DNA of 64,000 nucleotides from Patulibacter minatonensis DSM 18081. Lineage in GTDB: Bacteria; Actinomycetota; Thermoleophilia; Solirubrobacterales; Solirubrobacteraceae. Positions 34,681-56,935 of the stretch are shown one piece after another. The stretch lies in assembly GCF_000519325.1 (NCBI RefSeq), contig NZ_KI912613.1:1477317-1541316 (forward strand). Direction: 5' to 3'. A program made the position numbers and the translations under genes. Numbering within the stretch: position 1 is the first letter of the stretch; every line of letters begins with the position of its first letter. Under the pieces are notes generated by a model. It was not told the origin of the DNA, ran no database searches, and saw nothing but the letters and a program-made list of their open reading frames with translations.

Positions 34681-36381
34681 TCAGCCGCGCAGCGTCACGG
34701 TCTTCGTGAACGCCTTGCCGCCCTTGGGGGCGACGCGGACGACGACCTTGACCTTCTTCAGCTTCTTGACCAGCGCGCGACCCTCCTTGGTCAGCTTCAG
34801 GGAGACGGCGCTCTTCTCCTTCGCCGTGCCGGCCTTCAGCGACACCGTGACGGCCTTCACGAGCGTCACGATCTTCGTCTTCCGCGAGCCGGGGACCTTG
34901 ACCTTGCTCTTCGTCTTCACGGACACGGCGGCCTTCGTCGCGACGCTCGGCCGGACGAGTGACAGCGTGACTTTGCCGGCCTTCGTGGCCTTCAGCGACG
35001 AGGACGAGACCCTGGCGGCGCGCGGCTTCACCGGGTCGGCGGGCTTGACCGGGGTCGTCGGGACGGTCGGCGTGGTAGCCGTCGTCGTCGGGGTGGTGGG
35101 GGTCGTGTCGGGCGTCGTCACGACCGGGTCCGGCACGAACTCGGTGACCTCGAAGGAGCGCTCCTCGACCTTCTGCGGGAAGTCGCTGCCGGCCCGGAAC
35201 CCGGTCCACAGCACGACCTTGTGCGTGCCGAGCGACGTCCCGGCGGGGATCGGCAGCGCGCCGGACAGCGTGCCGTCGTCGTTCGCGCGGACGTGGAACG
35301 GCGTGCCGGTGCCATCGATGCGGGCCGTGACGGTCTGGCCGTCACCGGTGTTGCCGGTGCCGCCCGCGACGTAGAAGGGCGTCTTCTGCAGGCCGGTACC
35401 CGTCAGTGCGACCGAGCGGCCACGCTGGCCGGAGGCCGCGACCGTCACCGAACGCGCGGGCGAGGCGGTGTCGACCGCGTACGGAGCGACGACGCTGCGC
35501 GGCGAGCCGGTGTTGCCCTCGGAGTTCTGGATCGACCCGGCGAGGAAGCGGAGCCAGTGTGCGCCGTTCGCGTACGGCGAGATCCCGTTCGCGCCCGGGG
35601 TGTCAGGCAGATCGAGGTAGCCGGAGGCGGCCCCGGTGTCGTCGGTCTGGATCGTGGTCCACGTGCCGTTCGGGAACGTCGTACCCGGCAGGTTCTGGTC
35701 GTCGACCTTGACGCCGACGACCTGCTTCGGGCTGAACCCGGCGATGCGGTACGGGATGCGCGACCCCGGGACGAGCGACGGGATGTCGACGTACGGCGCC
35801 TGGGCCCCCCAGCCCACGGGCTGGTCGGCCGGCGGAGCGACGAAGACGTTGTTCACGATCGCGGTCTGAGCGGGCCCGGTGGCACGGATGAGGAAGTCCG
35901 CGTGGATGCTCCGCGGAGCGTCGCCGATCAGCCGGATGTGGTGCTTGCCGGACTGGACCTTCGACGCGTCCGCGGCGCGGGTGGTCTTGAGGTCGATCGA
36001 GCTGTTGATGGAGCCCGTCCCGTCGGCCGTCACCCAGGCGAAGCCGTCATCGGTGTTCGCCGCGCCTCCCGGAGGGACGGTCGGCTGCGTCGTCGGCCGG
36101 ATAGCGCCGTCGTCGAGCTTGACGACGAGGACCTCGTTCGCGTTGAAGCCGGCGCCGGTGAACGACACGACGCCCGTCGACGCGTCGCCGGTCACCGGCG
36201 TCTTGACGAACGTCGTGGTGACGCTCAGCGTCGCGGTGCCTCGCGTCTCGACCGGCCCACCCGGCGGCAGTGCCAGCGCGACGGTCGCCCAGACGGCGGC
36301 CAGCACGATGAGGACCGACGTCGTCGCGGCGACCATCAGTCGTCGTGATCGGAACGCGGCGGGCGCGGGTGCGTGCTGCAT
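34681..36381 (-). CDS. Secreted LPPGGxV-family protein, large member
   Basis: A 566-residue exported protein of no known family. After the signal peptide (about 12-38) the mature chain begins LPPGGPV, a start shared with the next two genes. Two or three Ig-like units follow. They contain SFTGAGFNANEVLVVKLDDG, GKHHIRLIGDAP and GAHWLRFLAGS; the H-x-(L/I)-R-(F/L) motif recurs in the sister proteins. A Thr/Pro linker (about 410-450) leads to a Lys-rich C-terminal strand domain (about 455-566). It is the last gene of an operon starting at 37844, behind iron box 2, 12 bases after the preceding stop, with GAGGAG before its ATG. Probably a wall-associated protein made under iron limitation; function unknown. 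Confidence 0.78.
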   Translation of the reverse strand: MQHAPAPAAFRSRRLMVAATTSVLIVLAAVWATVALALPPGGPVETRGTATLSVTTTFVKTPVTGDASTGVVSFTGAGFNANEVLVVKLDDGAIRPTTQPTVPPGGAANTDDGFAWVTADGTGSINSSIDLKTTRAADASKVQSGKHHIRLIGDAPRSIHADFLIRATGPAQTAIVNNVFVAPPADQPVGWGAQAPYVDIPSLVPGSRIPYRIAGFSPKQVVGVKVDDQNLPGTTFPNGTWTTIQTDDTGAASGYLDLPDTPGANGISPYANGAHWLRFLAGSIQNSEGNTGSPRSVVAPYAVDTASPARSVTVAASGQRGRSVALTGTGLQKTPFYVAGGTGNTGDGQTVTARIDGTGTPFHVRANDDGTLSGALPIPAGTSLGTHKVVLWTGFRAGSDFPQKVEERSFEVTEFVPDPVVTTPDTTPTTPTTTATTPTVPTTPVKPADPVKPRAARVSSSSLKATKAGKVTLSLVRPSVATKAAVSVKTKSKVKVPGSRKTKIVTLVKAVTVSLKAGTAKEKSAVSLKLTKEGRALVKKLKKVKVVVRVAPKGGKAFTKTVTLRG

Positions 36382-36393
36382 GGTGCTCCTCAG

Positions 36394-37413
36394 CTACTTC
36401 TTGGTGGTCTTGGTCGGCTTCAGGACGACCTTGGCGGTCGTCGGCGTGCCGCCGTTCGGGGTGATCGTCACGACGGCGTCCAGGCGCGCCCGCGTGCGGA
36501 GGACGCTGCGGCCGGTGGTCGTGAGCTTCAGGCGCAGGCTCTGGGAGACCTGGCCCGTGAGGGAGTAGGGGCGGCCCGAGACGAGGGTCCGGACCTTCGA
36601 GCCCTTGCGACCCTTCACCGCGAGCTTCGCGGCACTCCGGATCGTGATCTTGCCCTTGCCGACCGCCGCGGTGCGACGGACCTGCAGGGTCGCGACGGTG
36701 CCCTTGACGGCGACGGTCGAGCTGCGGACCTTCGCCAGGCCGCTGAGGACGACCGGGGTCGTCGTGCCCGGGGTGGTGGGGCCGCCCGGGGTCGTCGTGC
36801 CGGGGGTCGTCGTGGTGCCGCCGGGGGTCGTGGTCGTCCCACCCGGGGTCGACGTGGGCGGCAGGACGCCGGTGTCCGACCCGACGACGGTTCCGATGCT
36901 CGGCGCCGCGGCCTTGCCGCCGGTGCCGCACGTGCTGTCGATCGCGATGTCGCGGGCGATGCTGCGCTCGCTGCCGTTCGGGTGCGCCCACGTGCCGGTC
37001 AGGACCCGGAGCCAGTGCTGCTTGCTCGTGTCGCAGAGGTTCGCGTCCGCACCCTGGGCGACCGCCGGGATCTTGTCGTCGGCGCTCGCCTTCGTCGCGT
37101 AGGCCGCGCGATCGGTCGCGATCTCGCCGCAGTACGTCCCGCTCGCGTCGGGCTGGAACTGGCCGATGCCCCGACTCCCGAAGTCGTCGAACTTCACCTG
37201 GAACTGCTGCGGCGCCGCCCCGTCCTTGGTGACGAAGCCGCGGACGCAGAACTGGACCTTGCCCTCGCGGAGCGCGGCGCTCGTGATCTCGAGGCTGCCG
37301 GCGGGCGTGCCGAGCTTGTCGACCGCCCCGCCCGGCGGCAGGGCCACGGCGGTGGTGGCGCCGGCCAGGGCGAGCCCGGCCGAGGCGCCGACGACGAGGG
37401 TGCGGCGGCGCAC
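36394..37413 (-). CDS. Secreted LPPGGxV-family protein, middle member
   Basis: A 339-residue exported protein. The signal peptide (1-24) is followed directly by LPPGGAVDKLG. A domain of about 150 residues has four cysteines (FCVRG, TYCGEI, NLCDT and DSTCGT) and the shared KQHWLRVLTGTW motif. A Thr/Pro/Gly linker built from TPGGTTT repeats (about 195-225) follows, then a basic Ig-like domain (about 230-339). The GTG at 37413 is 2 bases past the upstream stop, so translation is coupled. The same operon and iron box 2 apply. Not recognised from any named family. Confidence 0.77.
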   Translation of the reverse strand: MRRRTLVVGASAGLALAGATTAVALPPGGAVDKLGTPAGSLEITSAALREGKVQFCVRGFVTKDGAAPQQFQVKFDDFGSRGIGQFQPDASGTYCGEIATDRAAYATKASADDKIPAVAQGADANLCDTSKQHWLRVLTGTWAHPNGSERSIARDIAIDSTCGTGGKAAAPSIGTVVGSDTGVLPPTSTPGGTTTTPGGTTTTPGTTTPGGPTTPGTTTPVVLSGLAKVRSSTVAVKGTVATLQVRRTAAVGKGKITIRSAAKLAVKGRKGSKVRTLVSGRPYSLTGQVSQSLRLKLTTTGRSVLRTRARLDAVVTITPNGGTPTTAKVVLKPTKTTKK

Positions 37414-37415
37414 GA

Positions 37416-37844
37416 TCAGCGGACCTTGAACGACTTGCTCTTGATGCTCGTCGCCGGCTTCGAGGCGAGGAAGCGCAGCGTGTGGCGGCCCTTGGCGACC
37501 GGCCGCGGGATGGTGACGTAGCCCGAGAACCGCTTGTTGCGGATCGGGATCTGGGCCAGGATGTCGCGGTCGTCGAGCTTGATCGTCACGACCTTGCCGT
37601 TGCCGGTGCGGGAGCCCTGGGCCTTCCAGTTGCGACCCGTGACCTTGATCCGGCCGCCGCGCTTGACGCTCGTGGTCGACAACGTCACCGAGGCGCCGTT
37701 GGACCGGCTGACGGCACCACCCGGCGGGACCGCCTCGGACGACGCCGCGGGGAGGAGGACGAGCGCGGCGGTCACGCCGCCGGCGGCGATGGTCGACAGG
37801 AGCGCCGTGCGGCGGGTGGCGGTGGTGCGGAGCGTGGTGGTCAT
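37416..37844 (-). CDS. Secreted LPPGGxV-family protein, small member
   Basis: A 142-residue exported protein and first gene of the operon. The signal peptide (about 1-37) is followed by VPPGGAVSRSNG and a single Ig-like domain (RIKVTGRNWKAQ, VVTIKLDDRDILAQIPI, GRHTLRFLASKPAT). It corresponds to one unit of the large member. It has no cysteines in the mature part. The start at ATG 37844 leaves a leader of about 150 bases to the iron box at 38024-38037, which is shared with the divergent siderophore-import operon. Confidence 0.77.
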   Translation of the reverse strand: MTTTLRTTATRRTALLSTIAAGGVTAALVLLPAASSEAVPPGGAVSRSNGASVTLSTTSVKRGGRIKVTGRNWKAQGSRTGNGKVVTIKLDDRDILAQIPIRNKRFSGYVTIPRPVAKGRHTLRFLASKPATSIKSKSFKVR

Positions 37845-38023
37845 GCGGTCTCTGGTCGGTGCTGGTGCGGGACGGCGGAGCGCCTGCTGGTGCGGTCCGT
37901 TCCGCGCGGCGCCGGCGGTCTCCGGGAGGCCCGCGGGACGACCGTGTGGCGCGTCCGCGTTCGCCTGAGACGGAGAGCGCCACGATGCGGACCGCGACGA
38001 TAGCATCAATTTGGGTATCCTAG

Positions 38024-38037
38024 TTAGGTCCTCCTTA
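38024..38037. promoter_or_regulatory. DtxR/IdeR-like iron box, site 2 (divergent promoter region)
   Basis: TTAGG-TCCT-CCTTA lies in an AT-rich patch between the LPPGGxV operon (minus) and the siderophore importer (plus). A TATCCT at 38016-38021 and a minus-strand TATCGT at 37997-38002 are candidate -10 elements on the two sides. A further CCTAG/TTAGG overlap suggests two dimers could bind. Confidence 0.7.
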
Positions 38038-38084: not shown

Positions 38085-39116
38085 GTGCTGCTCCACCGCC
38101 CGAATCGATCATCGGCCGCGCTCTCCCGCCCGTTCCTGCTGCTCCTCGCGCTCGCCGCGGTGCTCGGTCTGGCCGCCTGCGGGTCCTCGGACGCCGGCGG
38201 TGTCGAGGGCGGAACGCGCAGCTACACCGACGCCCGCGGCACGAAGCTCGAGCTGCCCGCGCGACCGCAGCGGATCGTCGCGCTCAGCGAGCCGACCCTC
38301 GACGCCGCCGTCGCCCTGGGCGCCAAGCCGATCGCGACGACCGCCGGCCGCGGGCAGGGCACGATCGCCGCGTACCTGCAGCAGCGCGCCGGGAACATCA
38401 CGAGCGTCGGCATCCTCGGCCAGCCCAACATCGAGCGGATCGCCGCGCTGCGACCCGACGTCATCCTCATCGACGGCACGGCGACCCCGGACGACTCGAT
38501 CGTCGACAAGCTCTCGAAGTTCGCCCCCACCGTCTTCGTGTCGAAGAACGGCGCGGACTGGAAGCAGGCGTTCGTGCAGACCGCCGACGTGCTCGGCCGG
38601 CAGGACGAGGGCAAGAAGCTGACCCAGGCCTACGACGACCGGATCGCGTCGATCAGGGCGAAACTCGGGAAGAACGCCGGCGCGGAGATCTCGATCGTCC
38701 GCTGGGGCGGCATCGGCCTGCCGGCGGTCCTGAAGTCCGAGCTCGCCGCGCCCCGGGTGCTGAACGACCTCGGTCTGACGCGCCCGTCGTTCCAGCGCGG
38801 CCGCGGCCCGGGCCACACCGTGCCGGTCAGCCTCGAGCGGATCGACGCGCTCGACGGCGACTGGATCTTCTTCGGCGCGCTGGGCTCCGGCGGCGCCGGT
38901 GGCGGCGTGTCGGAGACGCCGGCCGACGTCGCGTCCGCGAAGAAGGCGATCGGCTACGCCAAGGACACCCCCGGGTTCACGGACCTGAAGGCGTACAAGG
39001 CCGGGCACGTCGTGCCGGTCGACGGCTCCGCGTGGACGAGCGCCGGCGGCTACCTGGCCGAGCAGCTGGTGCTCGACGACATCGAGCGCACGCTGGCCGG
39101 CGGGGCCGCGCGGTGA
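38085..39116 (+). CDS. Ferric-siderophore-binding lipoprotein (FepB-like)
   Basis: A 343-residue class III binding protein with lipobox LAAC near residue 30. It starts its mature fold with TDARGTKLELPARPQRIVALSEPTLD, typical of iron-siderophore receptors. A long linking helix with IASIRAKLGKNAG lies near the middle. It is the first gene of a four-gene operon with an enterochelin-esterase homologue and two permeases, downstream of iron box 2. A ferric catecholate is the likely ligand from that context. The GTG start at 38085 gives a proper signal peptide. Confidence 0.9.
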   Translation: MLLHRPNRSSAALSRPFLLLLALAAVLGLAACGSSDAGGVEGGTRSYTDARGTKLELPARPQRIVALSEPTLDAAVALGAKPIATTAGRGQGTIAAYLQQRAGNITSVGILGQPNIERIAALRPDVILIDGTATPDDSIVDKLSKFAPTVFVSKNGADWKQAFVQTADVLGRQDEGKKLTQAYDDRIASIRAKLGKNAGAEISIVRWGGIGLPAVLKSELAAPRVLNDLGLTRPSFQRGRGPGHTVPVSLERIDALDGDWIFFGALGSGGAGGGVSETPADVASAKKAIGYAKDTPGFTDLKAYKAGHVVPVDGSAWTSAGGYLAEQLVLDDIERTLAGGAAR

Positions 39117-39135: not shown

Positions 39136-40539
39136 GTGACCGCGGCGCCCCGCCCACCCCGCTGGACGAAGGACCCGCCGCCGCAGGTCGTCCCGTCGCC
39201 GCCCGTCGAGGCCCTGGCCGCCGACATCGCGGGCGGGGTCGACCCGGCGACCGCCACGGCGGCGTTCTGGGCGGCCGCCGAGATCCGCGGCACCCCGCTC
39301 GTGGACCGCGTCGTGGGCTCGACCGGCGAGCGGATCGTCACGTTCCTGTGGCGCGACCGCCACGGGGCGGGCGACGGCACCCGCGCGGTCGTCCTGATCG
39401 CCAACAAGCTGACCGACCCGTCGCTGCCCGCAGAGAGCGGGCTCGAGCGCCTGCAGGGCACCGACGTCTGGTGGCGCGCCTTCCGGCTGTCGTCCGCGTG
39501 GCGCGGCACCTATGCGCTGGCCGCCGACGACGGCGCGACGCCCGTCGAGGACGCGACGGAGGGTCCGCGCGCACGCTGGCGCGGGCTGGCGACCCGGGCG
39601 GCGGCGGACGTCCGCAACCCGCGCACGTTCCCGGGGAACCGGGGCGCGGCGCCGCTGTCGGTGCTCGAGCTCCCCGACGCGCCGCCCCAGCCGCACTCGA
39701 CCCTGCCCGCCGGGGCCGCACGCGGCGTCGTCGCGGAGGTCCGCGTCCCGACCCGGGTCCCGGGGGAGGTCCGGCGCGCGTGGGTGCACGTGCCGGCGAC
39801 CGCGGGTGGGTCCGCGATCCGGGCCGCGGCGGACGGGACCGGCGCCGACGGTGGGTCGGCCCGACCGGGCGCCGCCCGGCGGACGGACGCGGCCGAGCCC
39901 CACCGCCTCCTGGTCCTTCTCGACGGCGACGAGTGGACCGGACGCCGCGACGCGCCGACGATCCTCGACGCGCTGCACCACCACGGACTGATCCCGCCGA
40001 CGATCACGCTGATGGTCGACGGCGGCGGTGCGGACGCGCGGACCGCCGACACCGTGGCGGGTGCCCCGCACCTCGACCTCCTCACCGCCACGCTGCCCGA
40101 CTGGATGCGCGAGCGGTACCCGGTCGGCGGCGGGCGCGAGCACCTGGTGCTGGCCGGCCAGAGCCTCGGCGGCCTCGCCGTCCTGCGGGCCGCGTCGCAC
40201 GCGCCCGACCGGGTCGGGGCGGTCGTCGCGCAGTCCTCCTCGCTGTGGTGGGGCGGGCAGGAGGCCCCGGACGCCCCGCCGCCCACGGTCGAGGGGCTCC
40301 GCGCTCGGCCCCCGGTCGGCGTCCGTATCCACGCCCAGGTCGGCCGCGACGAGTGGGTCATCCTGCGCTCCCACCACGCCCTTCGCGCTGCGCTCGCCGA
40401 GGCCGGGGTCGAGCACGAGCTCCACGAGTACGAGGGCGGCCACGACGCGTTCTGCTGGCGTGGCGGCCTGGCCGAGGGCCTGATCCGGGTGCTCGGCACG
40501 ACGTCGCTGGACGACGCGACCGCGAGGCCCCGCCCGTGA
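39136..40539 (+). CDS. fes: Enterochelin (ferric-enterobactin) esterase, Fes-like
   Basis: A 467-residue cytoplasmic alpha/beta hydrolase that opens triserine trilactone siderophores to release iron. The N-terminal all-beta domain (about 50-200, with VTFLWRD and DVWWRAFRL) is followed by the esterase domain (about 215-460). The nucleophile elbow is GQSLGGLAVLRAA, and the catalytic His motif EGGHDAFCW closely matches E. coli Fes. A low-complexity insert (about 220-250) is unusual. The GTG start is 20 bases after the binding-protein stop, and the TGA overlaps the next GTG. It indicates that the imported siderophore is a catecholate serine lactone. Confidence 0.92.
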   Translation: MTAAPRPPRWTKDPPPQVVPSPPVEALAADIAGGVDPATATAAFWAAAEIRGTPLVDRVVGSTGERIVTFLWRDRHGAGDGTRAVVLIANKLTDPSLPAESGLERLQGTDVWWRAFRLSSAWRGTYALAADDGATPVEDATEGPRARWRGLATRAAADVRNPRTFPGNRGAAPLSVLELPDAPPQPHSTLPAGAARGVVAEVRVPTRVPGEVRRAWVHVPATAGGSAIRAAADGTGADGGSARPGAARRTDAAEPHRLLVLLDGDEWTGRRDAPTILDALHHHGLIPPTITLMVDGGGADARTADTVAGAPHLDLLTATLPDWMRERYPVGGGREHLVLAGQSLGGLAVLRAASHAPDRVGAVVAQSSSLWWGGQEAPDAPPPTVEGLRARPPVGVRIHAQVGRDEWVILRSHHALRAALAEAGVEHELHEYEGGHDAFCWRGGLAEGLIRVLGTTSLDDATARPRP

Positions 40540-41600
40540 GCGTCGCCGTCGACACCGTCGGTCGCCCGCCGCAGGAGCCGGCCGCCCCCGTGACGGGCCG
40601 CCGCGGGTGGGGCGTCCGGGCGATCGGGCTGCTCGCGGCGATCGTCGTCCTGCTGGCCGCGATGCTGGCGAGCCTGGCGCTCGGCGCCCGGTCGATCCCG
40701 CCGCACGAGGTCTGGCACGCGCTGTGGCACGACGCGACGACCGTCCCGGAGCGCCTCGTCCGCGAGGGCCGCGTGCCCCGGACGCTGCTCGGGCTGCTCG
40801 TCGGCGCGGCCCTCGGCGTGGCCGGTGCGCTGATGCAGGCGCTGACCAGGAACCCGCTCGCGGACCCCGGGCTGCTCGGCGTGAACGCCGGTGCGGCCAC
40901 CGCGGTCGTCATCGCGATGGCGACGCTCGGACTGACGACGCCCAGCGAGTACGTGTGGTTCGCGTTCCTCGGTGCCGCGGTCGTGTCGCTCGTCGTCTAC
41001 GCGCTGGGCGCCGGGGGAGGATCGGGGGCGTCGCCGGTGCGGCTCGCGCTCGCGGGCGTCGCGGTGACCGCCGCGCTGACCGCGTTCATCGCCGCGATGG
41101 TGCTGCTGAAGCCGCAGGTGTTCGAGCAGTTCCGCTACTGGGAGGTCGGCGCGCTGAGCGGGCGCGACGTGTCGCTCGTGCGGCAGATGGCCTGGTTCAT
41201 CGTCCCCGGCCTCGTGCTCGCGGTGCTGCTGACGCGATCGCTGAACGTCCTCGCGCTGGGCGACGACACCGGCCGGGCGCTCGGTGCCCGACCGGGGCGG
41301 ATCCGTGCGCTGTCGCTGCTCGCGATCACCGCGCTCAGCGGTGCCGCGACCGCCGCCGCCGGACCGATCGCGTTCGTCGGCCTGACCGTCCCGCACGTCG
41401 CGCGGGCGATCACGGGCCCCGACCAGCGGTGGATCGTCCCCTACTCGGCGGTCCTCGGCGCGGCGCTGCTCCTGACCGCCGACGTCATCGGGCGCCTGAT
41501 CGACCCGCCCGGCGAGGTCCAGGTCGCGGTCGTCACCGCGTTCATCGGCGCGCCGTTCTTCATCGCCCTCGTCAGCCGTCGCCGGATCGCGCAGCTGTGA
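40536..41600 (+). CDS. fepD: FecCD-family siderophore permease, first subunit
   Basis: A 354-residue permease with about nine or ten membrane segments. It shows GRVPRTLLGLLVGAALGVAG, ALTRNPLADPGLLGVNAGAA and GPIAFVGLTVPHVARAITG, the conserved FecCD blocks. The GTG overlaps the fes stop (GTGA) and its own stop overlaps the next GTG, so the two permeases are translated together as a heterodimer like FepD/FepG. No ATPase gene follows. Confidence 0.9.
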   Translation: MSVAVDTVGRPPQEPAAPVTGRRGWGVRAIGLLAAIVVLLAAMLASLALGARSIPPHEVWHALWHDATTVPERLVREGRVPRTLLGLLVGAALGVAGALMQALTRNPLADPGLLGVNAGAATAVVIAMATLGLTTPSEYVWFAFLGAAVVSLVVYALGAGGGSGASPVRLALAGVAVTAALTAFIAAMVLLKPQVFEQFRYWEVGALSGRDVSLVRQMAWFIVPGLVLAVLLTRSLNVLALGDDTGRALGARPGRIRALSLLAITALSGAATAAAGPIAFVGLTVPHVARAITGPDQRWIVPYSAVLGAALLLTADVIGRLIDPPGEVQVAVVTAFIGAPFFIALVSRRRIAQL

Positions 41601-42658
41601 GCGGGCGGCGCGTCGAGCTCCGTGGCGGCGTGATCCGCCTGCGCGGCGACCGGATCTCGCTGCGCGTCGACCCGCGATCGATGGTCGTCGGCGGGATCCT
41701 CCTCGTGCTCGCCGCGGTGGTCGGGGTCTTCGCGATCGGCACCGGAGACTTCGAGCTGTCGGTGGGGGAGGTCCTCGACACGATCGTGGGGAACGGACCC
41801 CCGGGCGCCGACGTGATCATCAGCGAGCTCCGCCTGCCGCGGCTGCTCGATGCCCTCTTCTGCGGCGCGGCGCTCGGGGTCGCCGGGGCGATCTTCCAGA
41901 GCCTCACCCGCAACCCGCTGGGCAGTCCCGACGTGATCGGCTTCACCCAGGGCGCGGCGGTCGGGGCGGTGCTCCAGATCGCCGTGTTCGGCGGCGGGAC
42001 GCTGGCGATCGCCGGCGGCGCGGTCTTCGGCGGCTTCGCGGTCGCGGCGGCGGTGATGCTGCTCGCGCAACGGGCCGGCGGCACGCAGGGGTACCGGATC
42101 GTGCTGATCGGGATCGGCTTCTCGACCCTGCTGGCGTCGACCACCGCGTTCCTGCTGACGAAGGTCTCGCTCGAGACGTCGCAGAGCGCCCGGCTGTGGC
42201 TCGTCGGCAGCCTCAACGGTCGGGGTTGGGAGCACGTCGTGCCCGTGGGGATCGCCCTCGCGGTGCTGGTGCCCTGCGCGCTGGTGGCCGGCCGCAGCCT
42301 GCGGATGCTCGAGATGGGCGACGACACCGCCGCGGCGCTCGGCGTGTCGACGGAACGCTCGCGCCTCGCGCTCGTCGCGGTCGGCGTGGCGCTCGCGGCG
42401 GTCGCGACCGCGTCGACCGGTCCCGTCGCGTTCGTGGCGCTCGCGGCGCCCCAGCTCGCCCGCCGACTGACCGGGGCGACGGGCCCGGGCCTGATCCCCT
42501 CGGCCCTGATGGGCGGCCTGCTCCTGGCGGCCAGCGACCTCGCCGCCCAGCGCGTGTTCCCGTCGACCCCGCTGCCGGTCGGCGTGATGACCGGCGCGGT
42601 CGGCGGCGTCTACCTCATGTGGTTGCTGTTCAACGAGTGGCACCAGCGCCGGCGCTGA
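41597..42658 (+). CDS. fepG: FecCD-family siderophore permease, second subunit
   Basis: A 353-residue permease and partner of the preceding gene. Conserved blocks include SELRLPRLLDALFCGAALG, LTRNPLGSPDVIGFTQGAA and GPVAFVALAAPQLARRLTG. The N-terminal polar region (about 1-28) is slightly longer than usual. It is last in the operon, with its stop 3 bases from the stop of the converging surface-protein gene. The ATP-binding subunit must be encoded elsewhere; the only FecE-type ATPase in the window belongs to the B12 operon at 13607. Confidence 0.9.
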   Translation: MSGRRVELRGGVIRLRGDRISLRVDPRSMVVGGILLVLAAVVGVFAIGTGDFELSVGEVLDTIVGNGPPGADVIISELRLPRLLDALFCGAALGVAGAIFQSLTRNPLGSPDVIGFTQGAAVGAVLQIAVFGGGTLAIAGGAVFGGFAVAAAVMLLAQRAGGTQGYRIVLIGIGFSTLLASTTAFLLTKVSLETSQSARLWLVGSLNGRGWEHVVPVGIALAVLVPCALVAGRSLRMLEMGDDTAAALGVSTERSRLALVAVGVALAAVATASTGPVAFVALAAPQLARRLTGATGPGLIPSALMGGLLLAASDLAAQRVFPSTPLPVGVMTGAVGGVYLMWLLFNEWHQRRR

Positions 42659-45434: not shown

Positions 45435-48400
45435 TCAGCCGGTGACGCCGCCGGCCGGCGCGGCGGAGCGCGACGGCAGGATGCGGACCTTCGCCCGCGC
45501 GACGTCGGCCTTGACGCCGGTGGCGCGACCGGTGGCCTTCGTCTCGACGGTGCCCGGGCGGTTCAGCGCGCGGGCCTTGTAGGTGACCGCGGCCTTCTGG
45601 CCCGGGGCGAGGCGCTTGATCGTCCAGCAGCGCTGACCGTTCACCAGCGTCGCCTTCGGGTTGGAGGAGACGTACTTCAGGCCGGCCGGGATCGACTCGC
45701 AGACCCGGACGTTCCGGAGCGTGGTTCCGCCGTCGTTGCGCAGCCGGATCTTCACCGACAGCACCTGGCCCGGGCGCAGGGACTTCGCGCTCAGGACCTT
45801 CGTGACGACGAGCTCACCGGGCTCGGCGGCCGGGGTGTCCGGCTTGGCCGCGGCCTGCACGACGTAGGTCTTCGTGACCGTCGCCTTCTGCCCGAGCTGG
45901 TCGACGACGGTGACGCTCACCGTGTAGGTGCCCACCAGCTTCGTCGGCAGCGCGCCGCCCGCGGCGTACGGCACGACCGTGCCGTCGGGGAGCTTGATCG
46001 TCGCGTCGCACGAGGCCACGCCCGCCGGGGCGGTGCAGCCGACGTCGGCGGTCGCCTTGGCGCCGGCCGTCACCGGGGCGGACGGCACCGTCGCCGCGGC
46101 GACCGGGGGCCCGAACACCTCGTACGTCCGGGTGACCGTCTGCACGTTGCCGGCCTGGTCCTTGACCGTCGCGGTGATCGTGTGGACGCCCGGCGCCTGC
46201 GTCGGCAACGGGTCCCCGTTCTTGATCGGCACGTTCGTGCCGTCCGGCAGGGTCACCGAGGCGGCGCAGCTGTCGAGGCCACCGGGGGCGTCGCACCCGA
46301 ACGCGACGGGGGCCGAGGCACCCTGCGCCAGGCGCGTCCCGGCGTCCGGGCCGGTGATGGTGACCGACGGGGCACCCGGGACCACGTAGGTCTTCGTGAT
46401 GGTCTTCGTCTGGCCGATGTCGTCGACGACCTTCACCGTGACGGTGTAGGTGCCCACGGCGTTCGTCGGCAGCGTGCCGCCGTTGCTCAGCGGGACGACC
46501 GTGCCGTCCGGCCGCTTCACGGAGCCCTCGCACGTGTCGACGCCCGCCGGGGCGGTGCACGCGAACGCGGCCGTCGGCGTGGCGCCCTGCTTGACCGGGG
46601 CCGTCGGCACCGTGAGCGTCGCGTCCGGTCCGGCGAAGACCTCGTAGGTCCGGCTCACGGTCCGCGTCACGCCGACGTTGTCCTCGACCGTCGAGGTCAG
46701 CGTGTAGACGCCGGGCACCGCCGTCGGCAGCGGGTCGTCGTCGACGATGGCCGACGTCGTGCCGCCCGGGCGGGCGACGGTCGAGGTGCAGGACTTGACC
46801 CCGGCCTGCGCCGCGCAGTTCGCGTCGAACAGCGTCGTCGTCGAGCCGACGCCCAGGCGCGAGCCCGCGGCGGGGGAGACGATGACGACCGTCGGGGCGG
46901 TCGGGACCACGTAGGTCGCCGTCACCACCGTCGTCTGCCCGATCGTGTCGACGACCGTCGTGGTCACCGTGTAGGTGCCGGTCTGGTCCGTCGGCAGGTT
47001 GTTGCCGCTGGTGAACGGGCCCGTCGTGCCGTCGGGGCGCTGGATGGTCGTCGTGCAGGTCTGGATGCCCGCCGGCGCGTTGCACTCGAACGTCCCGGCG
47101 ACGCCGGCGTTCTGCCGGATCGGGGTCGTCGGCACCGTGATGGACGCGGTCGGGGCCGCGAAGACCTCGTACGTGCGGGTCGCGGTGGCCGTGCGGCCGA
47201 GGGCGTCGGTCACGGTCGCGGTGATCGTGTAGACGCCGGAGGTCCCGGTCGGCAGCGTGCCGCCGTCCGCGATCGAGGTCGCCGGGTCACCGGCGCGCTG
47301 GACGGTGGCGACGCACGGGTCCGTGGTCGCCGGTCCGCCCGGCGTCGTGCAGTCGAAGTCGACGGTCCCGACCGCGTCGACGCCGACGCGCGTGCCGGCG
47401 GCCGGGGTCGGGATCGTCACCGTCGGAGGCGCCGTGATGGTGAGGGAGCTGGTCGAGGTCGCGGGGCGGCCGTCGTAGTCGCTGTAGGTCACCGAGACCG
47501 GGTAGGTCCCCGGCGCCAGCGTGTTCGGGACGTCCGCCTCGCAGCGGTAGCCGGCCGCAGCGGAGCCGACGAGCGTGGCGGGGACGGCCAGCGGCCCGCC
47601 CGGCAGCGTGATCGTCGCCGTGCAGGGCGTCGCCGTGGCGGGCCCGGAGCCGGGCGACGTGACGGTGCCGACGAGCTTCGTGGCGTCCGGGGCCGGCGTG
47701 GCCAGCGTGATCGCCGGGGCGGCGGGCGTCGGGATCGTGCCCGGGCCGTTCGAGTCGACCTGGTTGGTGTCGACCGTCGTCGGCGCGCCGCCGGGCGTGT
47801 CGGGCAGGTACGACACCGAGGCCTTGTTGGTGATCGCGGTGCCGGCGGCGACGCCCGCGTTCACCTTCACGCGGAAGCGCACCGTCGCGACGTCGCCGTT
47901 CTGGAGCGTCCCGCCGGTCCCGCCGGTCGCGCCGCGGCCGATCCGGAAGGTCGTGGTGCCGCCGGCCGCCTCGGCCTGGTCGTCGGCCACCGCGTCGGTC
48001 TTGGCGCCCTCGACGGAGGCCTGCGGGTTGTCGACCACCTGCAGGGAGCCCGGCACGTAGGCGGTGTTCGCCGGCACCGCGTCCGTCACGGACACGTTCT
48101 GGGCGTCCGGGACGGCGGTCCCGACGCCGTCGCCGTTCGTCGTCTCGATCTCGTACTCGAGGACGTCACCGGCGACGACGTTCGCGCCCGGGTGCGTGAC
48201 GTTGCGGAAGCGCTTCGTCGTCTGGACGTCGTTGAGCAGCAGCGAGGTGGTGACGACGCCCGGGTAGTACTGGTCCTGGGTGGTGTCGAGCCGGATCGTG
48301 GCGCCGGTGGCCCCGTTCAGGATCCGCCCCTCGGGGACGGTGAACAGCTTGGAGTCGTACCCGAAGTTGTTGACGAACGCGGGGGTCCGGTCCGTCGAGG

Positions 48401-49322
48401 CGACGCCGAACCGCGAGATGCCGCCGTTGAACGAGTTGTTGATCGGCGTGGCGGCGTCGGACAGGCCGAAGGTGTCGTCCGCGCCGTTCAGTCGCGCGTG
48501 GTCGCCGGTGGTGCCGAGGTCGCCCTCGTAGGCGACGAAGCCCAGCCGGGCCCCGACCACGCCGGAGGCCGGGGCCTGGAAGCCGTCGATCGTGATCGTC
48601 TGTGGCGCGCCGTTGGCGATGACGGCGCTGCCGTTGAAGATCGTCAGGTTGCGCCGGGGCAGGGACGCGTCGCGGTAGGCCACGACCAGGGTCCACCCGC
48701 CGTGGTCGGCGTTGTCCCGCTGGCGCGAGACCGCGATGCCGCCGACGGTGTAGGCGCCGGAGCCACCGGCCTGGACGAGTGCCGTGACGTCCGCCGACGC
48801 CTGGAAGACGCCGTTGGTCGTGGTGTCGATGTCGGCCGCGTCGGCGGTGACGGTCGTGTACGCCCCGGTCCCGGCCTTGATCTTCGCGGTCCCGAACGTC
48901 GCCGCGGTGGCGCCGGTCAGGCGCGCGCCACCCCAGTACAACCGGGCGGTCTCGACGGTCGCGCCGGCCGGGACGTTCAGGTCCGCGGACGACGAGTTGT
49001 CGGTCGAGGCGTCGCCGTCCGTGTCGATGTAGACCATCGTGTTGCCGTAGCCGTTGTTGTTCAGCGGCCCGTTCGCCCCGGCGGCCCCGACGCCGTTCTG
49101 CGCGTCCGCGCACCCCGCCGTCGCGGTGGGGCACGTCACGAGCCCGTTGGCGGCGAACGTGATGTCGCCGCGGACGTTCGCGCCGTAGCGCTTGGTGAAC
49201 GGCGCGGCCTGCGCCGCTGAACCGAGGACGAGCAGCGTCGCCAGGGCGGCGACGAGTGCGGCGGTGGCGGTGGTCGCGCGTGCCGCCCGGGGTGGGCGTA
49301 CCGCGGAGGGTGTCGGGGTCAT
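45435..49322 (-). CDS. Giant secreted surface protein with alternating Ig-like repeats and a DUF11 end
   Basis: A 1295-residue exported protein. The signal peptide (about 15-42) is followed by a large N-terminal domain (about 43-440, opening FTKRYGANVRGDITFAANG and containing ARLYWGGARL). Isopeptide/DUF11-like domains (about 440-590) come next. Six Ig-like repeats of about 85 residues (about 660-1170) alternate between a type ending TRTYEVF and a type ending TYVVP, each with two cysteines. A DUF11 domain (about 1180-1260, VLSAKSLRPGQVLSVKIRLRN-like) and a basic tail follow. ATG 49322 has AGGAG. No sortase motif is seen at the C-terminus. Confidence 0.85.
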   Translation of the reverse strand: MTPTPSAVRPPRAARATTATAALVAALATLLVLGSAAQAAPFTKRYGANVRGDITFAANGLVTCPTATAGCADAQNGVGAAGANGPLNNNGYGNTMVYIDTDGDASTDNSSSADLNVPAGATVETARLYWGGARLTGATAATFGTAKIKAGTGAYTTVTADAADIDTTTNGVFQASADVTALVQAGGSGAYTVGGIAVSRQRDNADHGGWTLVVAYRDASLPRRNLTIFNGSAVIANGAPQTITIDGFQAPASGVVGARLGFVAYEGDLGTTGDHARLNGADDTFGLSDAATPINNSFNGGISRFGVASTDRTPAFVNNFGYDSKLFTVPEGRILNGATGATIRLDTTQDQYYPGVVTTSLLLNDVQTTKRFRNVTHPGANVVAGDVLEYEIETTNGDGVGTAVPDAQNVSVTDAVPANTAYVPGSLQVVDNPQASVEGAKTDAVADDQAEAAGGTTTFRIGRGATGGTGGTLQNGDVATVRFRVKVNAGVAAGTAITNKASVSYLPDTPGGAPTTVDTNQVDSNGPGTIPTPAAPAITLATPAPDATKLVGTVTSPGSGPATATPCTATITLPGGPLAVPATLVGSAAAGYRCEADVPNTLAPGTYPVSVTYSDYDGRPATSTSSLTITAPPTVTIPTPAAGTRVGVDAVGTVDFDCTTPGGPATTDPCVATVQRAGDPATSIADGGTLPTGTSGVYTITATVTDALGRTATATRTYEVFAAPTASITVPTTPIRQNAGVAGTFECNAPAGIQTCTTTIQRPDGTTGPFTSGNNLPTDQTGTYTVTTTVVDTIGQTTVVTATYVVPTAPTVVIVSPAAGSRLGVGSTTTLFDANCAAQAGVKSCTSTVARPGGTTSAIVDDDPLPTAVPGVYTLTSTVEDNVGVTRTVSRTYEVFAGPDATLTVPTAPVKQGATPTAAFACTAPAGVDTCEGSVKRPDGTVVPLSNGGTLPTNAVGTYTVTVKVVDDIGQTKTITKTYVVPGAPSVTITGPDAGTRLAQGASAPVAFGCDAPGGLDSCAASVTLPDGTNVPIKNGDPLPTQAPGVHTITATVKDQAGNVQTVTRTYEVFGPPVAAATVPSAPVTAGAKATADVGCTAPAGVASCDATIKLPDGTVVPYAAGGALPTKLVGTYTVSVTVVDQLGQKATVTKTYVVQAAAKPDTPAAEPGELVVTKVLSAKSLRPGQVLSVKIRLRNDGGTTLRNVRVCESIPAGLKYVSSNPKATLVNGQRCWTIKRLAPGQKAAVTYKARALNRPGTVETKATGRATGVKADVARAKVRILPSRSAAPAGGVTG

Positions 49323-49611
49323 GCTCGGGCTCCTGGGGAGAGCACGCCCCTCCTGGCGGGGCGGCTCCGTTCTCGACGAGGGACGGGGTGGCCGGGTGGG
49401 GGCCGTCGTCGCGAACCGTGGGGAGCGGCCGGCACGGCGGTGTTCCGATTTCGGACGCCACCCTAGGCGATTGCGGAGAGTCACACAAGGGTGGGGTGAG
49501 CGGTGGGGTGAGCGCGGGTGCGGACGGCGTCTCAGGAGCGGGTCGGGGGGCGACCCGGACCGCGTTCCCATGCGGCCGCCCCGGCGTGGTCACGATGTGG
49601 CGTCCATCCGC

Positions 49612-49625
49612 TTAGGGGCTCCTTA
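49612..49625. promoter_or_regulatory. DtxR/IdeR-like iron box, site 3
   Basis: TTAGG-GGCT-CCTTA, 72 bases upstream of the FMN-binding protein gene. It has the same half-sites and spacing as the other four boxes. No clear -10 can be placed, but the box would sit at the promoter of the flavin reductase operon. Confidence 0.65.
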
Positions 49626-51930: not shown

Positions 51931-52362
51931 CTACCGCACCTTGATCTTCATCTTCATGTGCGGCAGGTGCGGGTCGCAGACCACGGTGTAGGTGCCCTTC
52001 TTCGAGAGGGTCCGGGAGTACGAGCCCGAGGACCGCAGGCCCGAGTCGAACCGCGTGGGGCCGGAGGCGGCGCGGGCGTTGTGGGTGCCGCGACCGGCCC
52101 AGACCCACTTGACCTTCGTGCCCTTCCTCACGCTGAGGTTCGACGGCACGAAGCGGTTGTCGACGATCTTCACCGTGGCCGTCCGCGCGGCGACGGTGAC
52201 GAGCGGCGAGGCGGAGTCGTCGTGGTGGGCGAGGTGGCCGGAGGTGACGGACGACGGGCCGGCGTCCGGCGCGGCGGACGCCGAGGTGCCGAGGACGGCG
52301 GCGCCTCCTGCGAACCCGGCGAGGACGACGACGGCGGTGGCTGCTGATCCGGCTGACGGCAT
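51931..52362 (-). CDS. Secreted plastocyanin-like cupredoxin
   Basis: A 143-residue exported blue-copper-type protein. The signal peptide (about 1-30) is followed by a His/Asp/Ser linker and the cupredoxin fold (about 55-143). Copper ligands are visible: His in GRGTHNARA and Cys/His/Met in VVCDPHLPHMKMK. The start at ATG 52362 is supported by CAGACT 6 bases upstream, and an iron box (52375-52388) abuts this -10. It is separate from but close to the reductase operon it converges with. Likely an extracytoplasmic electron carrier made when iron is low. Confidence 0.88.
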   Translation of the reverse strand: MPSAGSAATAVVVLAGFAGGAAVLGTSASAAPDAGPSSVTSGHLAHHDDSASPLVTVAARTATVKIVDNRFVPSNLSVRKGTKVKWVWAGRGTHNARAASGPTRFDSGLRSSGSYSRTLSKKGTYTVVCDPHLPHMKMKIKVR

Positions 52363-52368: not shown

Positions 52369-52388
52369 AGTCTGTCAGGTGCGCCTAA
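52369..52388 (-). promoter_or_regulatory. Cupredoxin promoter: -10 CAGACT with abutting iron box, site 4
   Basis: On the plus strand TCAGG-TGCG-CCTAA at 52375-52388 (minus strand TTAGG-CGCA-CCTGA). It lies immediately upstream of the minus-strand -10 (CAGACT, 52369-52374) and overlaps the stop codon of the NRPS gene. The position between -10 and -35 is the classic place for repression. Confidence 0.68.
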
Positions 52389-55300
52389 TTCGATGGAGCC
52401 AGCAACGGTGCGAGGACCGCCGCGATCCGCTCCACGTGCGGGGGCCGCAGGAGCTCGGCGTGCGTGCACGGCAGGGCGTGGACGTCGAGGCCGCCCCGGA
52501 CGTGGGCGCGCCAGCCGTCGACGTCGAGCCAGTCCTCCGGCCGCGGCGCGGCGGCGGCGAAGAAGACCGCCGATCCGTGGAACGGCCGGTGCTCGTGCGT
52601 CCGCATCGCCGCCGCGTTGCGGACGACGATGCCGACCATCGCGTTCAGCACGTCCTCGCCGAGGGACGCCAGGGCCGAGCCGTCGTCCCGGAGCGCCGCG
52701 ACGACGCGCTCCCGGGTGAGCGGCCCCGTACCGAGCCGTGCGGGGTCGTGGCCCGCCATGTTCAGGAGGGCGACGAGGGCGTCGGACTCCTCCGGGGCAG
52801 CGAGGTCGCGCCACTGGTCGCTCGGGTAGGCGTCGAGGAGCGCGAGCACGTCGACGTCCGCGCCATCGTCCTCCAGGAGCGCGGCGACGGCCTGGGCGAG
52901 GACCCCGCCGACCGACCAGCCGAGCAGCCGGTACGGCCCCTCCGGCTGCAACGCGCGGATCCGCCGGACGTGGTCCGCGGCCATCTCGTGGAGCGTGGTC
53001 GGCGGCGTGCCTGACCCGTCGAGGCCGACCGCCTGCAGGGCGACCACGGGCTGGTCGGCCGGGAGCAGGCGCGTGAGCCCGGCGTAGCACCAGCCGATCC
53101 CGCCGGCGGGATGGAGGCAGAAGAGCGGCGGCCGGTCCCCGCCCTGCCGGAGCGGCAGCACGACGTCGAGGGCTCCGGCCTCGTCCGGATCCTCGAGCCG
53201 CAGCGCGAGCGCGGCGGCGGTCGGGGCGGCGAAGAGCGCGCCGATCGAGACCTCGCGCCCGAGCGCCCGGCGCAGGCGCTGCGCGGCCTGTGCGGCGAGC
53301 AGCGAGTGGCCGCCGAGGAGGAAGAAGTCCTCGTCCGGCCCGACGCGGTCCCGGCCGAGCAGCTCGGCGAAGACGCCCGCCACGAGCTCCTCCGTCGGGG
53401 ACGCCGGGGGGCGGTCGTCCGTCGCCCCGGGAGCGACCGGCGCCTCGGGGGCGGGGAGCGCGGCGCGGTCGAGCTTGCCGCTGACGGTCAGCGGCAGGGC
53501 GTCGAGCCCGACGAACGCCGCGGGGACCATCGCGTCCGACAGGGCCTCGGCGAGCCGGCGACGGAGCGCCCCCGCGTCGCACGCCGAGGCGGGGACGACG
53601 TAGGCGACGAGCCGGGTGGTCGCCGCCCCGGCGATCCCGTCGACGCGCGCGACGACCGCGGCCTGCACGACCCCGGGGGCGGCGGTGAGGTGCGCCTCGA
53701 CCTCGCCGGTCTCGATCCGCTGCCCGCGGATCTTCACCTGGTGGTCCCGCCGGCCGAGGTACTCGATCGCGCCGTCGGGACGCCACCGCGCGAGGTCGCC
53801 GGTGCGGTAGGTCCGGCCCAGCGCCGGGTCGTCGACGAACGCCGCGTCCGTCAGGTCCGGGCGGCCGAGGTAGCCGGCGGCCAGCTGCACGCCCGACAGG
53901 TGGAGCTCGCCGGTGGCGCCGACCGGGACGGGACGGCGCTCCGCGCCGAGGACGTGGCACCCGGTGTTCCAGACCGGGCGGCCGATCGGGACGCCCGTCC
54001 CCGGCGCGTCGTCGGTGCAGTCCCAGTGCGTGACGTCGACCGCGGCCTCGGTCGGCCCGTAGAGGTTGTCCAGGCGCGTGCCCGGGAGGAGGGCGCGGAG
54101 GCGGTCGCGGAGGTCCCCGGGCAGGGCCTCGCCGCTGCAGACGACGCGCCGCAGGCCGGTGCACGCGGCGGCCGCGGGCTCGTCGACGAACAGCGCGAGC
54201 ATCGACGGGACGAAGTGGCAGACGGTGACGCCCGCCCCGGCGATCAGCTCGGCGAGCGCGCGGGGATCGCGGTGGGCCCCCGGGGGCGCGACCTCCAGCG
54301 GCACGCCGGCGATCAGCGGCCAGAAGAGCTCCCAGACGGAGACGTCGAAGCCGACCGGGGTCTTCTGGAGGATCCGGTCGCCGGGCCCGACGGGGAACGC
54401 GTCGTCCTGCCACAGGAGCCGGTTGACGATCGCCCCGTGCGGGACGACCACCCCCTTCGGGCGCCCGGTGGAGCCGGAGGTGTAGAGGACGTAGGCGGGG
54501 TCGCCGGCGCGGGCGACGCGGTCCGGTGCGTCGTCCGGGACGGGCACGGGCGGCGCCCCGTGCATCGCGGCCGGGACGGTGGCGGACGGGCCGCCGGCGA
54601 CGACCTCGTCGCGCGTGGCCCGGCCGACCGAACCGTCGGCGTCCCCGGACGGCCGCGCGAGCGGCAGCGCATCCGGCCACGGCACGAGGTCGTCCAGCGC
54701 GGGGTCGACGACGACCGCGACGGGCCGGGCGTCGTCGAGCATGCCCCGGAGCCGCGCGCCCGGCTGGTCCGGATCGAGGGGCAGGTAGGCCGCGCCGCTC
54801 TTCAGGACGCCGACGAGCGCGACGAGCAGGTCGACCGACCGCGGCACGGCGACCGCGACGATCTGGCCCGGTCCCGCGCCGCGCTCCCGCAGCGCCGTGG
54901 CCAGGACGTCGGCGCGCGCGTGGAGCTCCGCGTGGGTCACGGCGTGCTCGCCCAGCCGGACGGCCTCGGCGTCCGGGTGCGCGTCGCGGCAGCGGTCCAG
55001 CAGGTCGACGAGCGTCAGCGCGGGGTCGACGTCGCGGGCGGTGGCGTTCCAGCCCGCGATGCGCGCGAGCTCCTCGGGGGTCGTGAGCTCCAGGCCGTCG
55101 ACCGTCGGCCCCGGCGTGTCGCGGACCGGGCCGGCCGCGGGAGGCTCGCGACGTTCCCCGGCGGGCTCGGGGTGGGCGAGGACGGCCTCGGCGAACCGCC
55201 GGAGGACGACGGGGAACCGCTCCGCGTGCAGGCCGGTCTCGTCCGCGTCGTAGCGGCCGACGTTCGCCTCGACGTCCAGGCGCGGCGGGGCGTCGCCGCG

Positions 55301-56479
55301 GTCGTAAAGGTTGAACGAGAGGTCGTCGACCGGCCCGGCGCCGAGGGTGCGGACGACGGCGGGGACACCGGCGAAGTCGAGCGCGTAGTCGAACGGCAGC
55401 ACGTTGACCATCGGCCCGTGGAGCGCCCGTCCACCGCCGAGCGCCCCGATGGTGCGGCGGAGCTCCTCGCCGCGGAAGCGCTGGTGGCGCCGGAGGCCGC
55501 GCATCCCGTCCGTCACGGCGCGCACGACATCGGCGGGGCGGCTGCCCCCGTGCAGCGCGACCCGCAGCGGCAGCACGTTGACCATCGTCGCCGGGCTGCG
55601 GAGCGCGACGGGCCCGAGCCGGGCGAGCATCGGGACGCCGAGGACGATCTCCTCCGGGACCTCGTCGTCCTCATGGCCGGCGGTGGTCGCCATGCGCCGG
55701 ACGTAGGTCGCGACGGCCGCCATCGCGAGCTCCGGCCAGGTCGCGTCGACGGCGTCCGAGGCGTCGCGGAGCAGCGCCATCAGGTCGGCGTCGAGCGGCG
55801 CGCTGGCCCGGTGGACCTCGTGCCCGGTCGACTCGGGGCGGTCGGTGAGCGTCGTGATCCGGGGCGGGGCCGCGAACCGCGCGCGCCAGTGCTCGTCGTC
55901 GCGGCCGGCGGCGGGGGAGTCCCGGTAGGCGGACTCGACCTCGAGCGTCGCGGCCAGGGACGGGAACCACGCGGGCGGCGGTTCGTCGCCGCACGCCAGC
56001 GCCGAGTGGATCTCCGCGGCGCGGCGGGCGATCAGCGACAGGCCCATCGCGTCGGCGGCCAGGTGGTGGACGCGCTGGAACCACGCGGTCCGGTCGTCGG
56101 CGACGCGGAGGAGCGCCTCGTCGAACAGGCGGTCCGTCGCCAGGTCCAGCGGCCGGCGCCAGGCCGACCGCGTCCAGGCCAGGACGGCGGCGTCCGGGTC
56201 CTCCTCGTCGCGCAGGTCGACGACGGGGAGCGGCCAGTCGCCGGGCGCGTGCGGGCGCTGGACCGGCAGTTCGCCGTCCGTATCGAGCCGCACGTGCAGG
56301 CCTTCGGCCTCGTCGACCGCCGTCCGGATCGCGGACGCGAGCAGGTCGAGGTCGACGGGCCCGCGGAGCTCGAGGCACTCCGCGGTGATGAACGCGGCGC
56401 CTCCCTCGTCGAGCTGCTGCGCGAACCAGATGCCCGTCTGGGCGGCGGTCAGCGGGAGGGCGTCGCCCCCGGCGGTCAC
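52385..56479 (-). CDS. entF: EntF-like siderophore NRPS: condensation, Ser-adenylation, carrier and thioesterase domains
   Basis: A 1364-residue one-module synthetase. C domain about 1-420 (HHLAADAMG; the usual DG of HHxxxDG reads DA). A domain about 470-1000 with YTSGSTGRPKGV and GELHLSGVQLAAGYLGRPDLT. The ten specificity positions read D-V-W-H-V-S-L-V-D-K, the serine code of the EntF type. Carrier domain about 1026-1095 (LLGGHSLLA). Thioesterase about 1116-1364 with GWSVGG. It would join an acyl group to serine and cyclise the trimer. The GTG start at 56479 overlaps the ArCP stop (GTGA); an ATG at 56518 is less likely. It is in an operon behind iron box 5. Length and domain order match EntF. 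Confidence 0.93.
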   Translation of the reverse strand: MTAGGDALPLTAAQTGIWFAQQLDEGGAAFITAECLELRGPVDLDLLASAIRTAVDEAEGLHVRLDTDGELPVQRPHAPGDWPLPVVDLRDEEDPDAAVLAWTRSAWRRPLDLATDRLFDEALLRVADDRTAWFQRVHHLAADAMGLSLIARRAAEIHSALACGDEPPPAWFPSLAATLEVESAYRDSPAAGRDDEHWRARFAAPPRITTLTDRPESTGHEVHRASAPLDADLMALLRDASDAVDATWPELAMAAVATYVRRMATTAGHEDDEVPEEIVLGVPMLARLGPVALRSPATMVNVLPLRVALHGGSRPADVVRAVTDGMRGLRRHQRFRGEELRRTIGALGGGRALHGPMVNVLPFDYALDFAGVPAVVRTLGAGPVDDLSFNLYDRGDAPPRLDVEANVGRYDADETGLHAERFPVVLRRFAEAVLAHPEPAGERREPPAAGPVRDTPGPTVDGLELTTPEELARIAGWNATARDVDPALTLVDLLDRCRDAHPDAEAVRLGEHAVTHAELHARADVLATALRERGAGPGQIVAVAVPRSVDLLVALVGVLKSGAAYLPLDPDQPGARLRGMLDDARPVAVVVDPALDDLVPWPDALPLARPSGDADGSVGRATRDEVVAGGPSATVPAAMHGAPPVPVPDDAPDRVARAGDPAYVLYTSGSTGRPKGVVVPHGAIVNRLLWQDDAFPVGPGDRILQKTPVGFDVSVWELFWPLIAGVPLEVAPPGAHRDPRALAELIAGAGVTVCHFVPSMLALFVDEPAAAACTGLRRVVCSGEALPGDLRDRLRALLPGTRLDNLYGPTEAAVDVTHWDCTDDAPGTGVPIGRPVWNTGCHVLGAERRPVPVGATGELHLSGVQLAAGYLGRPDLTDAAFVDDPALGRTYRTGDLARWRPDGAIEYLGRRDHQVKIRGQRIETGEVEAHLTAAPGVVQAAVVARVDGIAGAATTRLVAYVVPASACDAGALRRRLAEALSDAMVPAAFVGLDALPLTVSGKLDRAALPAPEAPVAPGATDDRPPASPTEELVAGVFAELLGRDRVGPDEDFFLLGGHSLLAAQAAQRLRRALGREVSIGALFAAPTAAALALRLEDPDEAGALDVVLPLRQGGDRPPLFCLHPAGGIGWCYAGLTRLLPADQPVVALQAVGLDGSGTPPTTLHEMAADHVRRIRALQPEGPYRLLGWSVGGVLAQAVAALLEDDGADVDVLALLDAYPSDQWRDLAAPEESDALVALLNMAGHDPARLGTGPLTRERVVAALRDDGSALASLGEDVLNAMVGIVVRNAAAMRTHEHRPFHGSAVFFAAAAPRPEDWLDVDGWRAHVRGGLDVHALPCTHAELLRPPHVERIAAVLAPLLAPSN

Positions 56480-56883: not shown

Positions 56884-56935
56884 CAGCGGCATTCAAGCAC
56901 AGGCGACAGCGTCGCCGTGCCCGCCCCGCGACGGG

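Follow-up and report, generated by a model that had tools for sequence, protein, structure and literature searches.

An unnamed family of exported Ig-like proteins encoded beside catechol-siderophore genes in Patulibacter minatonensis and other Actinomycetota

In a 64,000-nucleotide stretch of the Patulibacter minatonensis DSM 18081 genome (contig NZ_KI912613.1, positions 1,477,317 to 1,541,316; hereafter the window), three consecutive genes, P1, P2 and P3, encode exported proteins with immunoglobulin (Ig)-like units. As judged from sequence comparison, they form part of an unnamed family of small Ig-like domains, which is better defined by a K-x-D-D/H-W-L-R unit than by the LPPGG mature start that first drew attention to it. 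Across actinobacteria, this family occurs almost only beside genes for catechol siderophore synthesis or import. With confidence that we would call evenly balanced, we propose that P1–P3 reside in the envelope, are repressed by iron and assist a catecholate (enterobactin-type) siderophore system, for which they would capture ferric catecholate and hand it to a FepB-type lipoprotein.

The initial annotation had described three consecutive exported proteins of 142, 339 and 566 residues, and its coordinates and lengths proved exact (Table 1). All three genes lie on the minus strand in a tight operon spanning 37844–34681, with gaps of 2 bp between P1 and P2 and 12 bp between P2 and P3. The operon was also correctly described as divergent from a siderophore importer, since a Peripla_BP_2 protein, an enterochelin esterase and two FecCD genes were found there. 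The claimed common H-x-L-R motif was recovered in every unit (HHIRLI in the first copy of P3), each time preceded by K-x-D-D; the two copies in P3 read KLDD..HHIRLI and KVDD..HWLRFL. In P2 the unit is followed by a Thr/Pro linker and an Ig-like C-terminal tail, and in P3 the two units are followed by a further Ig-like stretch, a Thr/Pro linker and an Ig-like tail.

A twelve-row alignment of the P1–P3 units with those of related genomes gave the core V-K-x-D-D ... G ... G-x-H-W-L-R-F-L-A ... S ... F-x-V. In the 5.5-Mb P. minatonensis genome, the unit profile scored P1, P2 and both P3 units at 91–121 bits, whereas every other match reached at most 21.5 bits; thus, the resemblance among P1–P3 is not due to chance. 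Except for the weakest (E 3.7), these weak matches lay in P4, a further exported protein of the window, or in a paralogue of 698 aa whose gene lies downstream of dhbB at another siderophore locus. A pattern scan of 84,980 species with the KxDD and HWLRFLA stretches found 43 loci, all in Actinomycetota, in which genes were called with a simple GC-frame script. Because these patterns partly impose the KxDD/HWLR conservation of the retrieved units, conservation was assessed separately in 70 units of proteins that contain neither retrieval pattern, where Lys, His and Arg were conserved in 91%, 83% and 84%, respectively. Such a basic Lys-His-Arg set would suit a trianionic ferric catecholate.

The neighbours of the unit loci were compared by tblastn with FepB, Fes, nonribosomal peptide synthetase (NRPS), DhbA/B/C/E and siderophore-interacting protein in stored flanks of up to 10 kb. 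A siderophore marker occurred in the flank at 40 of the 43 loci but in none of 20 random 20-kb stretches, which were drawn from six genomes only (Fisher p about 1e-13), and two of the three marker-less loci (L082 and L093) were cut by contig ends. The count is not circular, because retrieval relied on the unit alone. Furthermore, in six whole genomes (3.3–10.1 Mb) all matches to the unit profile at E ≤ 0.01 lay at one locus per genome, and five of these six single loci carried siderophore markers. When 399 genomes of the class were sampled evenly, the same four had strong P1 homologues and Fes (Fisher p 4.8e-9), and one further genome encoded a weaker Fes. These data support the iron-linked family that the initial annotation had put forward: it had asked whether homologues would mostly lack iron-gene neighbours or match a characterised family, and neither was found.

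The same data bear on the proposal that P1–P3 are adhesins or matrix proteins exposed at the surface under iron starvation, whose Ig units serve as spacers or stickers, helping cells to attach to surfaces or to one another when iron is scarce, and which have only regulation in common with the siderophore genes. A combination of Ig-like sandwiches and Thr/Pro linkers is typical of adhesins, the proteins carry between 1 and 10 units, the best folds are macroglobulin (MG)/fibronectin type III (Fn3)-like modules, and the tails of P2 and P3 represent a generic domain that other exported proteins also have. Co-regulation alone, however, leaves unexplained the confinement to a single locus in whole genomes, the class-wide co-occurrence with Fes and the conserved K/H/R set, and we regard adhesion as unlikely. 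The proteins might instead help in siderophore retention or export, holding secreted apo-siderophore near the cell (privatisation) or aiding its envelope passage, with no part in ferric import. In Streptomyces, the gene adjoins biosynthesis (dhbC-E-B-F) and Fes more than an importer; the Streptomyces griseoviridis locus reads dhbC-dhbE-dhbB-NRPS, Fes, then, divergently, a four-unit protein and a YncE-like propeller. Nevertheless, most other genera, and also the window, have the importer substrate-binding protein (SBP) as the neighbour (27 of the 43 loci), so that a role in retention or export appears improbable. Adhesion under iron shortage is the most probable of the alternatives, retention or export of the siderophore the next, and haem binding, taken up with the known haem systems below, the least.

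The unit was found in Patulibacter, Conexibacter, Streptomyces, Motilibacter, Spirilliplanes, Phytohabitans, Nocardioides, Cellulomonas, Nesterenkonia, Klugiella, Corynebacterium, Propionibacteriaceae, Coriobacteriales and others. Sampling the phylum evenly showed the family to be rare, with strong scores for P. minatonensis and S. griseoviridis only; matches of 28–44 bits resemble generic Ig domains and were left uncounted. Orthologous P1-P2-P3 genes in the same order, divergent from genes for a FepB-type SBP and Fes, were present in two genomes (G004 and G036), in the latter with a siderophore-interacting protein after P3. In a Patulibacter metagenome-assembled genome, P1 and a P3-type gene likewise lie beside a FepB-type gene, and a DtxR-like regulator is also encoded. 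A protein with ten tandem units is encoded directly after a siderophore NRPS in Motilibacter deserti (L063:8732-12229).

The mature start (L/V)PPGGxV, proposed initially as the family signature, held in part. It is present directly after the signal peptide, as judged by eye, in each of P1–P3, and nearly all their orthologues start with [LIV]-P-P-x-G, but the V is not conserved among them. Single-unit members (Corynebacterium, Cellulomonas, Phytohabitans, Nocardioides and Coriobacteriales) begin with [LIV]-P-x-x-G-A, often followed by T-P-G-T, which makes [LIV]-P-x-x-G a phylum-wide start in this group, whereas Streptomyces members, mostly with four or five units, lack LPPGG. As Motilibacter and Spirilliplanes members also have the unit without it, LPPGG was rejected as the sole family signature. 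The PPGGxV motif alone was likewise rejected as diagnostic, since a DNA-pattern genome search gave as many control matches as real ones.

P1 and P3 contain no cysteine and hence no lipobox. LPXTG anchoring was discarded, no such motif being present in the proteins checked, and so was twin-arginine export, because the Z-R-R-x-hydrophobic pattern fits P1–P3 but misfits most orthologues. Members from Corynebacterium and Nocardioides have a C-terminal hydrophobic stretch with an Arg/Lys tail, and putative membrane anchors at the C terminus are frequent among the relatives. The Ig-like C-terminal tails of P2 and P3 (about 110 aa; window 36394–36735 and 34681–35020, respectively, minus strand) are a generic tail of exported proteins of the order, also found on a glycoside hydrolase family 5 (GH5)-like enzyme (L005) and on repeat proteins (L008, L009), with five strong copies in the P. 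minatonensis genome; this tail is possibly an envelope-retention domain. By consensus, neither a sigma-70 promoter nor a T-run terminator was found in the region.

Structure prediction agreed with the Ig-like units of the initial annotation: AlphaFold modelled mature P1 as a nine-strand beta-sandwich (pLDDT 90, pTM 0.81) with a low-confidence LPPGG tip. The nearest structure in Foldseek was an alpha2-macroglobulin domain (2p9r; TM about 0.6, E 4.9e-4), and the best VIA-align match had a Z of 8.8 (rmsd 2.4, 86 aligned). Many unrelated sandwich proteins matched, so the fold says little on function; NEAT and HtaA folds were not among the Foldseek and VIA-align fold lists for P1, which excludes nothing. 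The P3 model, built from three sequences only, was poor (pLDDT 57) and was unused except for its confidently folded tail. In Pfam-A and NCBIfam, P1–P3 had only sub-threshold matches, and nothing covered the unit across ten relatives. P3 reached 14.3 bits with Neocarzinostatin PF00960 (cut-off 25), P1 13.8 bits with DUF4469 (cut-off 22.6), and P4 and the relative P0018 14.7 and 16.2 bits with PGS Ig-like NF058592 (cut-off 45); among the relatives, multi-unit P0012 passed the GEVED cut-off and P0017 matched YncE below cut-off. A 40-unit profile gave nothing convincing against solved structures (best E 0.0017). With no characterised match in these three collections, the claim that the proteins belong to no named family stands. 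No account of the family turned up in a search of the open-access literature.

The P1–P3 operon is apparently iron-repressed, to judge from box-like sites. The iron box that had been placed between this operon and the importer corresponds to two iron-repressor-like palindromes, and a similar pair precedes P4 (Table 1). Seven TTAGGN4CCTAA-like matches occur in the window versus 0.9 expected. Across the genome, 16 sites deviate from the pattern at no more than one position, compared with 6 for a control pattern, and 9 of the 16 fall within 1511692–1584639 (73 kb, 1.3% of the genome; p 1.3e-13), a stretch with the P1–P3 locus, genes for the NRPS, a cupredoxin and a flavin reductase, and dhb genes. 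This looser palindrome was derived by comparing orthologous intergenic regions and fits the window better than the classical 19-bp DtxR consensus, which was rejected with a best match of 13/19 only. Just upstream of the unit gene in S. griseoviridis lies a DtxR/DmdR-type box matching at 19/19 positions, and another Streptomyces has one at 18/19. The boxes of Solirubrobacterales (window, L014, L015, L060-L062) resemble two separate 14-bp palindromes side by side, unlike the overlapping 19-bp DtxR/IdeR box of Streptomyces.

P4, outside the set of the initial annotation, probably belongs to the same iron system as P1–P3. The best match of its propeller in the PDB was Escherichia coli YncE (3vgz; E 1.1e-17, residues 174–467), and it shares 37% identity with the propeller next to the S. 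griseoviridis member. Against NCBIfam YncE (NF052280), P4 scored 93.2 bits (E 1.3e-26), short of the 400-bit cut-off, and is thus YncE-like, not YncE by that rule. Of the 43 unit loci, 25 have a YncE-like propeller, and in 11 proteins unit and propeller are fused in a single chain. Fur regulates YncE in E. coli (PMC5120174), and XusB, a surface beta-propeller lipoprotein of Bacteroides, binds ferric enterobactin (PMC13142918).

Table 1. Features of the window (positions counted from its first nucleotide)
Feature	Position	Strand	Description
P4	32900-34357	-	485 aa, exported; Ig-like domain and YncE-like beta-propeller
Iron-repressor-like box in front of P4	34376-34405		GTAGGGTTGCCTAA + GTAGGCAGACCGAA
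P3	34681-36381	-	566 aa, exported; mature start LPPGGPV (residue 38); two unit copies
P2	36394-37413	-	339 aa, exported; GTG start; mature start LPPGGAV (residue 25); motif KFDD...HWLRVL
P1	37416-37844	-	142 aa, exported; one Ig-like unit; mature start VPPGGAV (residue 38); motif KLDD...HTLRFL
Iron-repressor-like box between P1 and FepB gene	38010-38037		TTTGGGTATCCTAG + TTAGGTCCTCCTTA; two TTAGGN4CCTAA-like palindromes
FepB-type ferric-siderophore substrate-binding lipoprotein	38085-39116	+	Divergent; Peripla_BP_2 E 1.2e-24
Enterochelin esterase (Fes)	39136-40539	+	Enterochelin_N E 8.1e-30; Esterase
FecCD permease 1	40533-41600	+	E 8.8e-93
FecCD permease 2	41597-42658	+	E 5.9e-79
Siderophore NRPS	52385-56518	-	Condensation, AMP-binding, carrier, thioesterase; homologous to NRPS of Streptomyces catechol clusters
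Carrier-protein open reading frame upstream of NRPS	56476-56892	-	Box match at 56870-56883

Further box matches lie elsewhere in the window. Directly downstream of the NRPS, a cupredoxin-like protein is encoded at 51931–52362 (minus strand), with a box match at 52375–52388, some 12 bp ahead of the predicted start; finding a copper protein in a siderophore regulon is unexpected. Another match (49612–49625) lies about 40 bp upstream of the gene for a 1378-aa PKD/DUF11/Big surface protein (45435–49571, minus strand), which may be in the same iron regulon. The second iron locus of the genome (1569654–1584639) encodes a 997-aa protein with Ig and YncE-like propeller domains, dhbA, dhbC, dhbB, the 698-aa Ig paralogue and a flavin mononucleotide reductase, and carries four TTAGGN4CCTAA-like boxes.

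Gram-positive siderophore uptake is usually described as an SBP plus an ATP-binding cassette (ABC) permease. In the system proposed here, the Ig-like units, in which Lys, His and Arg are conserved near K-x-D-D and H-W-L-R, would most likely bind ferric catecholate within the wall and deliver it to the FepB-type lipoprotein. Import would then fall to the FecCD permeases, Fes would open the siderophore, and the P4 propeller would act in the same relay. The signal peptides, the layout of the operon, the conserved unit, the siderophore linkage, the box-like sites, the propeller fusions and the hydrophobic anchors of relatives are observations, whereas binding of the ligand, its handover and any role of LPPGG are inferred. 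More tentatively, and with odds that we place somewhat below even, KxDD/HWLR units and YncE-type propellers could form an undescribed, phylum-wide envelope relay for ferric catecholates, with the LPPGG mature N terminus as a docking or handover tail.

Several points weigh against capture of ferric catecholate by P1–P3. The conserved unit residues may be structural, and the Ig/MG/Fn3-like sandwich is common and serves also plain spacing or adhesion. P1 has no anchor and could diffuse from the cell, and a monoderm SBP is able to take up siderophore without such accessory proteins. Moreover, a survey of how actinomycetes recognise siderophores, published in 2026, gave no match when searched for wall, accessory, Ig-like, propeller or surface proteins, and the passages found there name only the SBP (PMC13293324). 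A widespread, apparently iron-controlled exported family at catechol-siderophore loci suggests a missing extracellular uptake step. It also links YncE-like propellers, which are orphans in E. coli, with ferric catecholates, consistent with Bacteroides XusB, and the relay, if true, would suggest a function for this orphan iron-regulated propeller.

Such a relay would resemble in its logic the haem relays of the NEAT (Isd) and HtaA systems, but its protein family is unrelated in sequence and its cargo would differ. In the Isd system of Staphylococcus, iron-repressed exported Ig-like NEAT domains hand an iron compound through the Gram-positive wall to an ABC lipoprotein, an arrangement that for P1–P3 is a proposal only. 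HtaA, ChtA and HbpA of Corynebacterium are DtxR-regulated actinobacterial surface haem proteins and, like relatives of P1–P3, end in a hydrophobic anchor. The Ig-like fold, the iron-box-like sites and export would also fit surface proteins that bind haem and function like NEAT or HtaA. However, neither the NEAT profile (Pfam-A, E up to 1 and 0.1) nor the HtaA profile (Pfam-A, NCBIfam) matched P1–P3 or ten relatives, and the haem-ligating Y-x-x-x-Y is absent from P1–P3 and orthologues; a NEAT or HtaA identity was rejected on these grounds. The neighbours, moreover, are FepB, Fes and NRPS genes, not hmuTUV, and catechol biosynthesis and Fes do not act on haem. Haem looks a less likely cargo than a catecholate siderophore, and haem binding by P1–P3 is very improbable. 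FepB/PBP2-type SBPs have the same gene context and presumed cargo as P1–P3 but a bilobed fold, in contrast to the small beta-sandwich of P1–P3 and the absence of a lipobox from P1 and P3. Periplasmic, iron-regulated E. coli YncE is the closest solved sequence to the P4 propeller, whereas P4 has an extra Ig domain and falls below the YncE cut-off; we know of no Ig partner of E. coli YncE. XusB differs as a Gram-negative lipoprotein of the DUF4374 family that works with a TonB-dependent transporter and lacks the Ig-like KxDD/HWLR unit, yet it too is a surface accessory protein for ferric enterobactin, and its seven-bladed propeller is comparable to P4 and the fusion relatives.

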